Shown here piece by piece: positions 19,745-25,221 of a stretch of 41,149 bases of DNA. The position numbers were made by a program, and so were the translations under genes. A model generated the notes under the pieces. That model made no database searches. It saw only the letters and a program-made list of their open reading frames with translations, and was not told the origin of the DNA. The stretch covers positions 1 through 41,149 of the forward strand of contig JALWCE010000154.1 of assembly GCA_027036935.1 (NCBI GenBank). The letters run 5' to 3'. Source of the stretch: Nitratiruptor sp. Its GTDB lineage: Bacteria > Campylobacterota > Campylobacteria > Campylobacterales > Nitratiruptoraceae. The number at the start of each line of letters is the position of its first letter. The first letter of the stretch is position 1.

Positions 19745-20920
19745 CTACCAGTGCACTTCGGTAGTGAGAAGATAATCGATTTTATCGTTGTTTTTGTTGG
19801 GGATGTCGTCGCTGTATTTGTCTATATTGGCGATGAATTTGACATTTTTATTGTATGTATAGGCGACCCCTGCGATGAGGTTTTTCTTGGTATAGTCACT
19901 AGCCGCCGCTGGGGTAACTTTCCAATGATCATATCTAGCAAGGAGGCTCCATTGGGGTATCGGACGAACTTCGCCATTGAGGCTCCATCCATGCCCGTCG
20001 TGCGGACCCCCGTTGTTGTCGTCTCTCATCCAGTGGCCTGCTATGAGAAAAAGAGGCTGATTGTATACCGCATGCAAGCCGGTCATCGTATCTTTGTTGG
20101 TGCCATTGTCGGTACCGGTAAGGAGTCTGCCGTAAAAGGAGAGGTTGAGCCACTCATCACTCGTAGCGTGGAGATGTTTGTTGCCGTTGCCTAGTGCGTG
20201 ATAGGTCAAACGCCACTCGAAGCTCTGCCCAGACCCGCTCTTTTTGCTATGATAGCCGCCATTGTTGAAGAGCCCCATCTCACTGCTAAAGTATGGCCTT
20301 TTGGTTTTGAAATTGACTCCAGGAGCCGCTGAATTGATCACATGAGCCGCATTATGGGTCTCTACAAAAGTTTCGGAGATACTGCGATAAAGCCATCCAT
20401 GGTGCTCGGCATAATCGATCCAAGGTCTATGCACTTGGCCAAACTCCACTCCCGTATAGGGCAAAACATTGCTTAAATACAAATAGGCGTATTTGAGGCG
20501 ATAGACCCAGTCCCCAGAAGCGTTTTGATGCGTATCCATCGTTACTCTAGCATAATCTTTATCGTTCCAGTAAGCTTTGACCTGAAAATAGTTTCTTCGT
20601 GTCTCAAATCGGCTCACATCCGATTTGGCTTGATCATCGTAGTGTGTATAGCGATAGCCTAGATAGTGGGTGCCGTTGATTTTGAGCTTTGGCACTTTTG
20701 AAAAAATTCTCGTACTACCCAGCTCTTTGCTCATCTTTTTTTGGATATCTTTTGTGGTAGTCACTACCTCATCTTTACTGATAAACTCTCCTAGCTTTAC
20801 CCGATTGGGTCCGGGTTTGGTGTACAAAGCTCCTGTATTGGTATCTTGATAAAGTACCACCGTTGTAGCAAACATGTTGGTAGCTAGTAGTGCCGCAAGA
20901 GAGAGTGCGATTTTTTTCAT
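19745..20920 (-). CDS. Outer-membrane beta-barrel porin
   Basis: Signal peptide MKKIALSLAALLATNMFA; alternating aromatic/polar strands; C-terminal TTEVHW aromatic residue. Confidence 0.8.
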   Translation of the reverse strand: MKKIALSLAALLATNMFATTVVLYQDTNTGALYTKPGPNRVKLGEFISKDEVVTTTKDIQKKMSKELGSTRIFSKVPKLKINGTHYLGYRYTHYDDQAKSDVSRFETRRNYFQVKAYWNDKDYARVTMDTHQNASGDWVYRLKYAYLYLSNVLPYTGVEFGQVHRPWIDYAEHHGWLYRSISETFVETHNAAHVINSAAPGVNFKTKRPYFSSEMGLFNNGGYHSKKSGSGQSFEWRLTYHALGNGNKHLHATSDEWLNLSFYGRLLTGTDNGTNKDTMTGLHAVYNQPLFLIAGHWMRDDNNGGPHDGHGWSLNGEVRPIPQWSLLARYDHWKVTPAAASDYTKKNLIAGVAYTYNKNVKFIANIDKYSDDIPNKNNDKIDYLLTTEVHW

Positions 20921-20942
20921 AACCTTTCCTTTAAATTTTTTC

Positions 20943-21077
20943 TAAAGTCAGGAATATCAGGGCATCGACTCTTGGCATAGGGGAAGTAAGACCCGACCAT
21001 TGTTTGTTTAGAGCAATGGTCGGGCATCCCTGCTTAAAGCCAAAATCCCCCATATTTATGCGTGGGGAGTATGTGAG
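20943..21077 (+). mobile_element. Degenerate IS200/IS605 tnpB 3' end with omegaRNA-like right-end scaffold (copy B)
   Basis: + frame reads FSKVRNIRASTLGIGEVRPDHCLFRAMVGHPCLKPKSPIFMRGEYV, a TnpB C-terminus-like tail (ASTLGxGExRP). Stem CCCGACCATTG/CAATGGTCGGG; right-end hairpin CCCCCATATTTATGCGTGGGG (21047-21067). Confidence 0.7.
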
Positions 21078-21081
21078 GCCC

Positions 21082-23025
21082 TCAACCCAAAAGCTCTTGT
21101 GCTTTTTGGACTACATTTTGGACGCTAAATCCATACTCTTTAAAAAGTACGTCCGCAGGGCCGCTGGCACCAAAGCGATTTTCCATGCTGATCGTCGCGT
21201 CGGCAAAACGATAGAGCTCCAATCCTGCAGCCGCTTCTATGGCAAGAACTTTAGTTGCAGGATCGATAACCTCTTGGATGTACTCTAGATCTTGCTCCAA
21301 AAAAAGCTCCATACACGGCATACTTACCACATTGGCGTTGATCCCTTTTTCTTCCAAGTGACATCCCGCTTGAAGCGCCAACATCACCTCGCTTCCACTT
21401 GCTAAGAGCGTAAGTACCGCGTTCTCCCTTTTTTTGATGATATAAGCTCCTCTGCTAGGCTCTCCAAAATCTCGCTTGGGCTTGAGGGTTTTGAGCTTTT
21501 GGCGTGAGAGTACAAAACCGCTTGGGCGATCGAGCCTAATCGCTATTTTCCAGCACTCCACGTTCTCCGTCGCATCGGCCGGTCGAAATGTATAAAAATT
21601 TGGAAGTGCCCTAAAGGTCGTGAGCTGCTCTACTGGTTGATGAGTAGGACCATCTTCACCGACTCCTATGCTGTCATGGGTCCATATGAAGTAGTTTTTG
21701 AGGCTTGAAAGAGCCGCTATTCGCACAGCCGCTTTTTGATAGTCGCTAAAGACAAAAAATGTAGCGTTGAATGGAATGAGCAGTCCATAGGCCGCCATCC
21801 CATTAGCGATCGCTCCCATAGCGTGCTCTCGTACGCCAAAATGGATATTTTTTCCTTGAGGGAACTCTCCCATTCCTTGTAGATAGGTCTTGTTGGATGG
21901 AGCCAAATCGGCGCTTCCGCCCAAAAATCCCGGCAAGGCTTTGGCGATAGCATTGAGGATTTTGCCGTTGCTCTCTCTCGTAGCGATCATACTGCCGGGC
22001 TCAAACTGGGGCCACTCGATCGCATCATAATCTGGATGCTGCAGTTTTTCTAGCAGTTCCGTCTGCTCTTTGTATGGAGATTCGATGATAAGCTTTTTCC
22101 ATTCTCTTTCTGCCAACTCTCCTTTTTCGACGGCACACCGAAAGCGTACCAATACATCTTCTGGTACATAAAAGTGTTTATCCGGCGGGAAGCCCGCTTT
22201 TTCTTTGGCGCATCTAATATCATCCTCTCCTAGTGGTGCCCCGTGGGCGTGTGGATCTCCTTCATACTTGCAACTTCCTTTGGCTATAACGGTATTGGCT
22301 TTGATGAGTACCGGTTTGCTCCGCTTTTTGGCCCATGTCAAAGCTGCATCTATCTGATCGTAATCATGCCCGTCAATCTCGATCACATCCCAGTTTTGTG
22401 CCCGAAAACGCTCCATCACATCTTCGTTCCATGCTAAAGAGGTATCCCCCTCGATAGTAATGTGATTGCTATCGTAAATAAGGATAAGATTATCAAGCTC
22501 ATACCGGCCCGCCAGTGCTCCAGCTTCGTAACTGATCCCCTCTTCCAAATCCCCATCGCCACAGAGACAATAAACCTTGTGGTCGATGATTTTGGTTGTT
22601 TCTGTGTTGAGTAAATGGCCAAGATATTTACTTGCCATCGCCATACCCACAGCATTGGCTATCCCTTGTCCTAAAGGTCCAGTAGTGATCTCCACTCCCG
22701 GAGTGTGTCCATACTCTGGATGGCCAGGCGTTTTGGAGCCATACTGACGGAACTCTTTGAGATCCTCCAGAGTCAAGTCATATCCCCATAAATACAAAAG
22801 CGAATAGATCAATCCCGTAGCATGCCCACCACTAAAGACCAAGCGATCTCGATTGAGCCATTTGGGATTTTTGGGATTGTGCCTAAGATGTTTGGAGAGC
22901 ACCACCGCCACATCAGCCAATCCCAAAACCACACCCGGATGGCCGCTATTGGCTTTTTGGATCATATCTAGACCCAAAAATCGGATGGTATCAGCCATCT
23001 TTTTGAGCATCTTCTTCTCTTGCAT
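21082..23025 (-). CDS. tkt: Transketolase
   Basis: ANSGHPGVVLGLADVAVVLSKHLRHNP, GHATGLIYSLLYLWGY, CGDGDLEEGISYEAGALAG; start chosen at 23025 behind AGGAGAG. Confidence 0.96.
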   Translation of the reverse strand: MQEKKMLKKMADTIRFLGLDMIQKANSGHPGVVLGLADVAVVLSKHLRHNPKNPKWLNRDRLVFSGGHATGLIYSLLYLWGYDLTLEDLKEFRQYGSKTPGHPEYGHTPGVEITTGPLGQGIANAVGMAMASKYLGHLLNTETTKIIDHKVYCLCGDGDLEEGISYEAGALAGRYELDNLILIYDSNHITIEGDTSLAWNEDVMERFRAQNWDVIEIDGHDYDQIDAALTWAKKRSKPVLIKANTVIAKGSCKYEGDPHAHGAPLGEDDIRCAKEKAGFPPDKHFYVPEDVLVRFRCAVEKGELAEREWKKLIIESPYKEQTELLEKLQHPDYDAIEWPQFEPGSMIATRESNGKILNAIAKALPGFLGGSADLAPSNKTYLQGMGEFPQGKNIHFGVREHAMGAIANGMAAYGLLIPFNATFFVFSDYQKAAVRIAALSSLKNYFIWTHDSIGVGEDGPTHQPVEQLTTFRALPNFYTFRPADATENVECWKIAIRLDRPSGFVLSRQKLKTLKPKRDFGEPSRGAYIIKKRENAVLTLLASGSEVMLALQAGCHLEEKGINANVVSMPCMELFLEQDLEYIQEVIDPATKVLAIEAAAGLELYRFADATISMENRFGASGPADVLFKEYGFSVQNVVQKAQELLG

Positions 23026-23902
23026 TACTCTCCTTTGTGAAATGTTGATGTCGATAAAGGTAATTTTGTAGCGCCTCTTGCAAACTTTTTTGTATCCTCG
23101 GTTCAAAAAATGCAAGCTCTTCTTCTAAATTTTTGGCTAATTCTTGCGCTTTTGCATAAGCTCCATCCAAACCCAAAAGATTGACAAAAGAGTTTTTATA
23201 CTCATCTTTTTGCGTACTTTTGCCCGCCTCTTCTTGCGTGCATACCGCATCGATGATGTCATCTTGAATCTGAAAAAGCAGGCCAAGGCCCAAACCAAAA
23301 TCATAAAGTCTTTGGAGTATCATCTCCTCCAACCCTACAATCACTCCGCCCATCTGCAAAGAAGCAGCAATGAGCTTTGCTGTCTTGTTGCGATGCAAAA
23401 TAGTAAGCTGTTTGAGCGTAAGAGGATGGTTCTCAAAATGACAATCAAGGATCTGGCCATGCACCATTCCCTCTACTCCACCATTTTTGGCCAAAATAGT
23501 TGTAAGTCCATTTTTTATATCAGAGCTCAAAGGAGCACTACCAATAAGATAAAAAGCATGCGTATTAAGAGCATCGCCCACCAAGACGGCGGTTACTTCA
23601 TCATAACGGGTATGAAGTGTAGGCTTGCCCCTGCGAAGAGCTGCATCATCCATTACTGGAAGATCGTCGTGAATGAGGGAGTAAGTGTGAAATATCTCCA
23701 CTGCCAAAGCTATGGGCATAGAAGAGGGGAGAAGCAACGGATCGACAGCGTGGACTATGCTCAGCAGCAAAAGGGGACGAAAACGTTTTCCACCTGCTTG
23801 CAGCATTGCGTTTAAAGCTTCTTGATAGTGAGGATGAAAGCTATCGATTTGGATAGGGTGGGTGCGTAAATACTCCTCAAAGTGTTCGAGCAGATCCATC
23901 AC
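22991..23902 (-). CDS. ispA: Farnesyl/geranyl diphosphate synthase (polyprenyl synthetase)
   Basis: [44 protein letters not shown]. Confidence 0.93.
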
Positions 23903-24204
23903 TCTTTTCCAAACATAGACGGATCAAAAAGATTCATCGCATTTTTTTGTCGATTTTCCTCCACCATTTTTAGTACGTCGTTGAGTGCACTCATAAGTAA
24001 AATCTGCAAGGATTCCTTATCCTCTAGCAAGGAATCGTCTATTTTGATATCGATAATCTCCCCCTTGCCGTTAGCGCTTACTTGCACCATACCTCCACCA
24101 CTTTTGGCGGTTAAAATTTGTCGCTCCTGCTCCTCTTGGAGTTTTTTTGCCTTTTCTTGCATTTGCTCAAAAAGCTTACCAATATCGCCCAACTTATCAA
24201 ACAT
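23899..24204 (-). CDS. ebfC: Nucleoid-associated protein, YbaB/EbfC family
   Basis: [25 protein letters not shown]...[25 protein letters not shown]; start set to MFDK at 24204. Confidence 0.9.
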
Positions 24205-24221
24205 TTCCATCCTCAATTTAC

Positions 24222-24428
24222 AAAATATCGCCGTAAAACCCCTTGATGTATCAATGGGGATATAAGGCGACAAAAGAGTTGAGAGGGGATTTGTCCCCTC
24301 TCAACTCTTTTGCTATAAAAATAGAGAGCCGGGGCATCGACTCTTGGCATAGGGGAAGAGACCCGCAATTGCAAGCATCCCCACTTAAAGCCGCAATCCC
24401 CCGCATTTATGCGTGGGAAGTATGTCAA
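24222..24428 (+). mobile_element. Non-autonomous IS200/IS605 (IS608-like) mini-element (copy C) with left-end hairpin, internal perfect palindrome and omegaRNA-like right end
   Basis: TTAC at 24218-24221; left hairpin CCCC-TTGA-TGTA-TCAA-T-GGGG (24239-24259) with one extruded T; internal 18-bp palindrome (24272-24311); tnpB tail RAGASTLGIGEETR; right-end hairpin 24398-24417; terminal TCAA 24425-24428. Confidence 0.7.
24272..24311. repeat. Perfect 18-bp inverted repeat, 4-nt loop
   Basis: AAAAGAGTTGAGAGGGGA-TTTG-TCCCCTCTCAACTCTTTT. Confidence 0.95.
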
Positions 24429-24468
24429 AATATAGTACACTCATACCCTACGAAATAGCTCCCAAGAG

Positions 24469-24834
24469 CTACATCGAGTGAAGAATCTCTTGGATATCGT
24501 TTTTTTCATCTACCAAAACGATAGTGGGCTCATACGATTGAAGCTCTAAAGGATCGTATTGGGCGTAAGCTACGATAATGATCTTGTCTCCAGGATGGAC
24601 TTTTCTCGCTGCCGCCCCGTTAAGGCAGATTTCTCGTTTGCCTTTCTCGCCTTTAATCACATAGGTTTGAAAACGCTCGCCGTTATTGATATTAAGAATA
24701 TCGACTTTTTGACCAACAACAAGTTTTGCTGCTTCCATAAGCTCTTCATCGATGGTAATGGAACCAACATAATTAAGATTGGCATCCGTTACCGTAGCTC
24801 GATGAATTTTGCTATAGAGCATTTCGATTTGCAT
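24469..24834 (-). CDS. panD: Aspartate 1-decarboxylase
   Basis: [34 protein letters not shown]...[13 protein letters not shown]. Confidence 0.96.
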
Positions 24835-25221
24835 TTACGCTCCACCTGCCATTTTGATTACATCTGCAATGCTAAGAGGCTCATCCCAATACTCTTTTGG
24901 TATCAGATACTCCTCCACCACTTTGCCGCCGATTATGTGCTCTTGTATAATTCTATCAATTTTTTCCTTGTTTAGTCCAACATACATATGATGACCCGGC
25001 TCCACAAGCATAACGGGGCCTAATTGACAGCGGTTAAGGCATCCAGTGCGCACCGGCTGAACTGCTGCGATAATCCCTTTTTCCATAAGTTTTTGTGCCA
25101 TATATTGAAAAAGCTGCTGGGTTTCGGGGTCATTGGCATTGACACAGCTTGGTTTTGGAAAGCCCGGAGGTGCGGACTGCTCACACTTAAAAAGATAAAA
25201 TGTAGGTTGTGGAATGCCCAT
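24835..25221 (-). CDS. (2Fe-2S) ferredoxin, thioredoxin-like fold
   Basis: FYLFKCEQSAPPGFPKPSC...VQPVRTGCLNRCQLGPVMLVEP. Confidence 0.85.
   Translation of the reverse strand: MGIPQPTFYLFKCEQSAPPGFPKPSCVNANDPETQQLFQYMAQKLMEKGIIAAVQPVRTGCLNRCQLGPVMLVEPGHHMYVGLNKEKIDRIIQEHIIGGKVVEEYLIPKEYWDEPLSIADVIKMAGGA

Follow-up and report, generated by a model that had tools for sequence, protein, structure and literature searches.

The window analysed here is a 41,149-nt stretch of a draft Nitratiruptor genome (contig JALWCE010000154.1), and the spacer between its panD and ebfC genes carries a 207-bp unit that has the ends of an IS608-type insertion sequence and codes for no transposase (Table 1). Subterminal hairpins with a single extruded T are present at both ends of the element; the left one is separated from the upstream TTAC by 17 nt, and the right one is followed by AAGTATG and the terminal TCAA. 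As single-stranded DNA, the left hairpin (24218-24270) folds with a z-score of -3.8, the right hairpin with -2.1 and the central palindrome with -12. In IS608 itself, TTAC and TCAA are the cleavage sites, AAAG and GAAT the guides, and insertion takes place 3' of TTAC (PMC5934647). By analogy with ISDra2, TTAC is presumed to serve also as the target-adjacent motif (TAM) of the cognate TnpB. All of the motifs singled out by a first-pass annotation of this DNA (TTAC, both hairpins, CAAT, AAGTATG, TCAA and the short frame RAGASTLGIGEETR) were recovered in place.

Table 1. Features of the panD-ebfC element and its immediate flanks (positions in the window)
Feature	Position	Strand	Basis
Complete non-autonomous IS608-type mini-element, PATE-like, 207 bp	24222-24428	+	Dispersed copies; empty sites in sister species
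TTAC, target and left cleavage tetranucleotide	24218-24221	+	Precedes nearly all copies
Left guide position, AAAA in the window copy	24235-24238	+	AAAG in most copies and in IS608
Left-end hairpin CCCC-TTGA-TGTA-TCAA-T-GGGG, single extruded T	24239-24259	+	Fold; architecture common to other copies
Palindrome, 19 bp, perfect	24271-24312		Terminator-like on both strands; imperfect in other copies
Candidate promoter, TTGTCC, 17 nt, extended -10 TGC-TATAAA	24291-24319	+	Motif kept in nearly all mini-elements
Remnant of tnpB 3' coding end, frame RAGASTLGIGEETR	24325-24366	+	Matches C-terminus of the C59 and C17 TnpB frames
OmegaRNA-like scaffold	24325-24428	+	Consensus fold of 26 sequences with compensatory changes
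Right guide CAAT	24394-24397	+	GAAT in many copies and in IS608 (PMC5934647)
Right-end hairpin, 4 bp + extruded T + 4 bp + 4-nt loop	24398-24417	+	Same plan as left hairpin
TCAA, right cleavage tetranucleotide, terminal 4 nt	24425-24428	+	Common to copies; PMC5934647
Right flank, would-be omegaRNA guide	24429-24448	+	Position by analogy with ISDra2 reRNA (PMC8612924)

The palindrome is perfect, as first described, and its arms (24271-24289 and 24294-24312) are 19 bp each rather than 18. This perfection is private to the window copy; in the other copies the palindrome is imperfect, with a right arm reading TCCCCTTGAAACTC, and the clustered changes in the window look like the template-switch correction of a quasi-palindrome. 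Isolated palindromes derived from the right-end hairpin occur elsewhere in the same genome (G000) at two loci, L023 (C77, near 5008) and L019 (C23, near 15226), with TTGACATAC/GTATGTCAA on both sides and without the remaining parts of the element. The window itself also holds a second, decayed right end of the family beside the 3' end of tkt (20960-21077, + strand), which has TGTGAG instead of TGTCAA and a long inner hairpin as in the copies of a relative, G008; no left end was found for it.

Dispersed copies, full-length relatives and empty sites

When positions 24200-24450 were searched against the window's own genome (a draft assembly of 1.69 Mb in 156 contigs), about ten more copies were found at unrelated sites, 78-91% identical to the query. 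Near-complete copies lie on contigs C2, C120, C59, C143, C130 (two), C71, C104 and C42 (E values from 1e-79 to 1e-41, with ends as in the window unit), a shorter one of 154 bp lies on C52, and there are single-end fragments besides; the other copies that were measured are 194-219 bp long. Nearly all complete copies sit between TTAC and TCAA, the departures being C120, which has no TTAC, C42, whose right end is degenerate, and a few copies at TTAT. The left guide is AAAG in most copies and the right guide either GAAT or CAAT. Two further combinations of guide and target were seen: TTAT in place of TTAC with the left guide still AAAG (L010 and L012, on C42 and C17 of this genome, and L052, on C66 of G008), and the reverse, AAAA at TTAC, in the window copy and C2.

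Two larger relatives share the ends of the window element. The parent-like element on C59 (1443 bp) has an intact tnpA, and its tnpB is interrupted by an internal deletion and by a 10-N gap in the assembly; the element on C17 (1427 bp) encodes an intact TnpB of 381 residues and has no intact tnpA. Each enzyme is therefore intact on only one copy of this draft assembly, and no copy has both. The C59 product is a Y1 TnpA of IS608 type, identical to the TnpA of ISHp608 at 106 of 143 residues (74%, E 2e-73). The C17 protein has OrfB and TNB domains, matches the TnpB of ISDra2 (E 1e-55) and keeps the RuvC triad (D192, E277 and D352), and from its sequence we predict that it is the cognate, nuclease-competent TnpB.

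Among 60 genomes searched (this one included), the element occurs in four, all of one genus: G000, G008, G015 and G004. Several mini-elements are present in both G008 and G015 together with tnpA and tnpB of the family; G004 has a single decayed copy and neither gene; in G009 and G003 no copy, no tnpA and no tnpB of the family were found. The element and both genes thus co-occur in three genomes, and among the three without the genes only G004 has a copy. The mini-elements L043 (G015, C163) and L042 (G008, C34) are 97% identical across two species, above the host genes that were compared, which reflects either recent transfer or mixing of draft assemblies.

The two flanks of twelve insertions were joined and searched in eight genomes of the genus. 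For seven of the twelve, the window's insertion and six others, a single match runs across the joint in G008, and several give one again in G009. In G008 the joint falls directly after TTAC for both C130 copies and the C59 mini-element; for the copies on C52, C154 (the window) and C143 and for the full-length C59 copy, the tetranucleotide before it differs from TTAC by one base. In G009 it follows TTAC for the full-length C59 copy, for C52 and for one C130 copy (C130a). The empty sites show no target duplication, and several pairs have small gaps near the joint. The sister allele of the window's insertion reads TCTAC joined to AAAATATTATG; its exact joint is blurred by a 7-bp length difference and an 8-bp repeat, CAAAATAT, at the two ends; judging by the other copies, it should lie after TTAC. 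Because these empty sites exist in sister species, past mobility of the elements is shown.

Taken together, these results bear out the first-pass reading of the unit as a complete, IS608-like non-autonomous element: it shares its TTAC and TCAA ends with dispersed copies, an ISHp608-like TnpA is encoded in the genome, and sister species carry the sites without it. None of the three outcomes named as counting against the reading (neither other copies nor a related full-length IS in related genomes, no empty alleles, or a panD-ebfC spacer conserved across genera) occurred. The unit is very probably a member of a non-autonomous IS608-type family mobilised in trans.

The omegaRNA-like scaffold and its candidate promoter

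The guide RNA of ISDra2 derives from the right end of that element (PMC8612924), and the right 104 nt of the window unit correspond to the last tnpB codons and the right end of the full-length copies. This identity, together with a conserved fold, upholds the earlier suggestion that the right part is omegaRNA-like; the frame RAGASTLGIGEETR is indeed a tnpB tail, as had been proposed, matching the C-terminus of both full-length TnpB frames. In the consensus fold of 26 sequences, stem 1 and the right-end hairpin are accompanied by an inner hairpin and by a long-range helix, TGGC/GCCA. Pairing holds in 92.2% of cells. In 53 cells both sides have changed; shuffles give 20.3 such cells and slid controls no more than 4. 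These both-side changes follow relatedness, and the number of events is therefore smaller than 53. Stem 1 reads GAGTC/GACTC in every tnpB-linked right end seen (in G000, G008 and G015) and AAGGTT/AACCTT in most mini-elements of G008 and G015. The simplest reading is that three stem 1 pairs changed together after the loss of tnpB, and the swap may instead be a single event inherited from an unsampled full-length parent. A role for stem 1 as a minus-strand terminator was considered and rejected, because the copies of G008 lack the T-run.

Of the 26 scaffold pairs, 23 remain in the window copy, which also lacks 2 nt present in the other copies; its RNA, folded alone, is no more stable than shuffled sequence. 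Assignment to a described RNA family was rejected, as the Rfam 15 covariance models gave no match up to E 1 across positions 20500-25000. With three broken scaffold pairs, the 2-nt loss and a left guide of AAAA instead of AAAG, the window copy appears to have been mobile once and to be partly decayed now.

An extended -10 motif, TTTTGNTATAAT, or a near variant of it stands just before stem 1 in nearly all of the mini-elements, with C42 departing most. In the window copy, TGC-TATAAA (24311-24319) follows TTGTCC at a distance of 17 nt, and transcription is predicted from the sequence to start near 24326, where the scaffold and its stem 1 begin. A generic sigma-70 scan returned no promoter, this candidate included, so the argument for a promoter is one of conservation and position. 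In the full-length C59 copy, TTTGCTATAAT lies just before tnpA; the deletion has thus apparently brought a left-end promoter up to the guide RNA. Short homology is shared by GCTATAAT, located upstream of tnpA, and GCTATTAAT, within the tnpB tail, which suggests that this was a microhomology deletion.

Passive leftover or possible guide-RNA-only transposon

We propose that the family is PATE-like (PATEs are palindrome-associated transposable elements), that a deletion probably set a left-end promoter before the omegaRNA, and that TnpA and a TnpB loaded with these guides probably act on it in trans. An internal deletion in a tnpA-tnpB parent would have joined the left end (hairpin, quasi-palindrome and extended -10 promoter) to the last tnpB codons and the right end. 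TnpA supplied in trans would peel and paste the resulting mini-element as single-stranded DNA. Transcription from the retained promoter would begin at the foot of stem 1, and the short RNA produced, an omegaRNA ending in 16-20 nt of the right flank, would load TnpB in trans. Since each guide is the copy's own right flank, its target by construction is the empty site; TnpB could then cut re-sealed donor alleles (TTAC plus right flank) after excision, and repair of the cut empty allele would restore the copy and favour its retention. We regard the guide-RNA steps of this scheme as about evenly poised. That the window element would supply a guide RNA is a well-motivated hypothesis, against which stand the lesions of this particular copy and the poor stability of its own fold. 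The fullest form of the proposal, a guide-RNA-only transposon family whose copies would be stand-alone guide genes that use TnpA to move and TnpB for retention, with selection on the RNA fold in the mini-elements, is put forward tentatively, at a little under an even chance.

Its main rival holds that only the two TnpA-recognised ends matter and that the omegaRNA-like middle is a passive deletion leftover in fairly recent copies. PATEs with no known RNA role are common, down to ends-only forms of 52 bp (PMC3119063), and scaffold pairs are broken in the window copy and in some others, all of which suits a leftover. A leftover does not readily account, however, for helices that TnpA does not need (stem 1 and the long-range helix) being kept with compensatory changes in mini-elements that no longer code for TnpB, nor for the promoter that nearly all copies carry close upstream of stem 1, at a distance of a few bases. 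We consider this a substantial possibility that nevertheless falls short of even. The guide RNA might also have been domesticated, with the host using it to direct a regulator derived from TnpB to particular genes; such regulators exist, and with a promoter immediately ahead of the scaffold, stand-alone expression is plausible. The guide is simply the right flank of each copy, however, different at every site, the encoded TnpB keeps its nuclease triad and the insertions are not common to the species, which makes domestication very unlikely. That IS608-like motifs came together here by chance, or that the locus is a regulatory element fixed in the panD-ebfC spacer, has a negligible probability: each motif is short when taken singly, but the presence of about ten dispersed copies with the same ends is the decisive evidence against chance, and a fixed element is rejected by the empty sites, the panD-ebfC spacer of the two closest relatives being without the unit.

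The known kind to which these elements belong is the PATE, whose traits they share: they are short, have no transposase gene, carry near-terminal palindromes, are kin to IS605-type elements and leave no target duplication. The present family goes beyond this in being amplified in several genomes, in having empty sites and a candidate promoter before the scaffold, and in showing compensatory changes in the mini-elements. TnpB and IscB work of 2021-2023 reportedly mentions PATEs and trans-acting omegaRNAs, which lowers the novelty of the idea. Our literature search for guide-RNA-only elements returned only two precedents (PMC3119063; PMC7290912). The PATEs of Haloquadratum walsbyi are likewise IS605-derived, too short for a transposase, bounded by near-terminal palindromes, present in many copies and free of target duplication, and some were formed by core deletion; they were described without a guide-RNA reading (PMC3119063). 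Unlike them, the elements described here are bacterial and of IS608 type, and retain in their core, downstream of a candidate promoter, the 3' end of tnpB together with the omegaRNA scaffold. The PATE-like element of Halanaerobium hydrogeniformans comes close in layout: it measures about 271 nt, has no tnpA, and consists of a left-end hairpin fused to the final 58 nt of tnpB and the complete right end (PMC7290912). It is a single copy, whereas the present family is spread over three genomes in many copies and shows empty sites, scaffold covariation and a retained promoter.

With IS608 (ISHp608) of Helicobacter pylori the family shares TTAC and TCAA, subterminal hairpins preceded in most copies by AAAG on the left and by GAAT or CAAT on the right and, in the parent-like copy, the closely related TnpA described above (PMC5934647); the mini-element differs in coding for neither TnpA nor TnpB, and the window copy in its guides AAAA and CAAT. 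The reRNA/omegaRNA of the ISDra2 TnpB offers a parallel for the right end, its scaffold being drawn from the tnpB 3' end and the right end and its guide from the flank, with a TAM equal to the insertion target and a homologous TnpB (PMC8612924). Here, by contrast, the putative scaffold lies in a tnpB-less element behind its own candidate promoter. The layout of a stand-alone omegaRNA is unusually explicit for a PATE; the guide function is proposed.

TnpB is thought to prevent the loss of its own insertion sequence after excision and to drive the spread of insertion sequences (for plasmids, PMC11870625). With guide-only copies, empty sites in sister species and enzymes encoded elsewhere, TnpB-driven retention in trans becomes directly testable in this element family, as does the question of whether gene-less elements exploit it.
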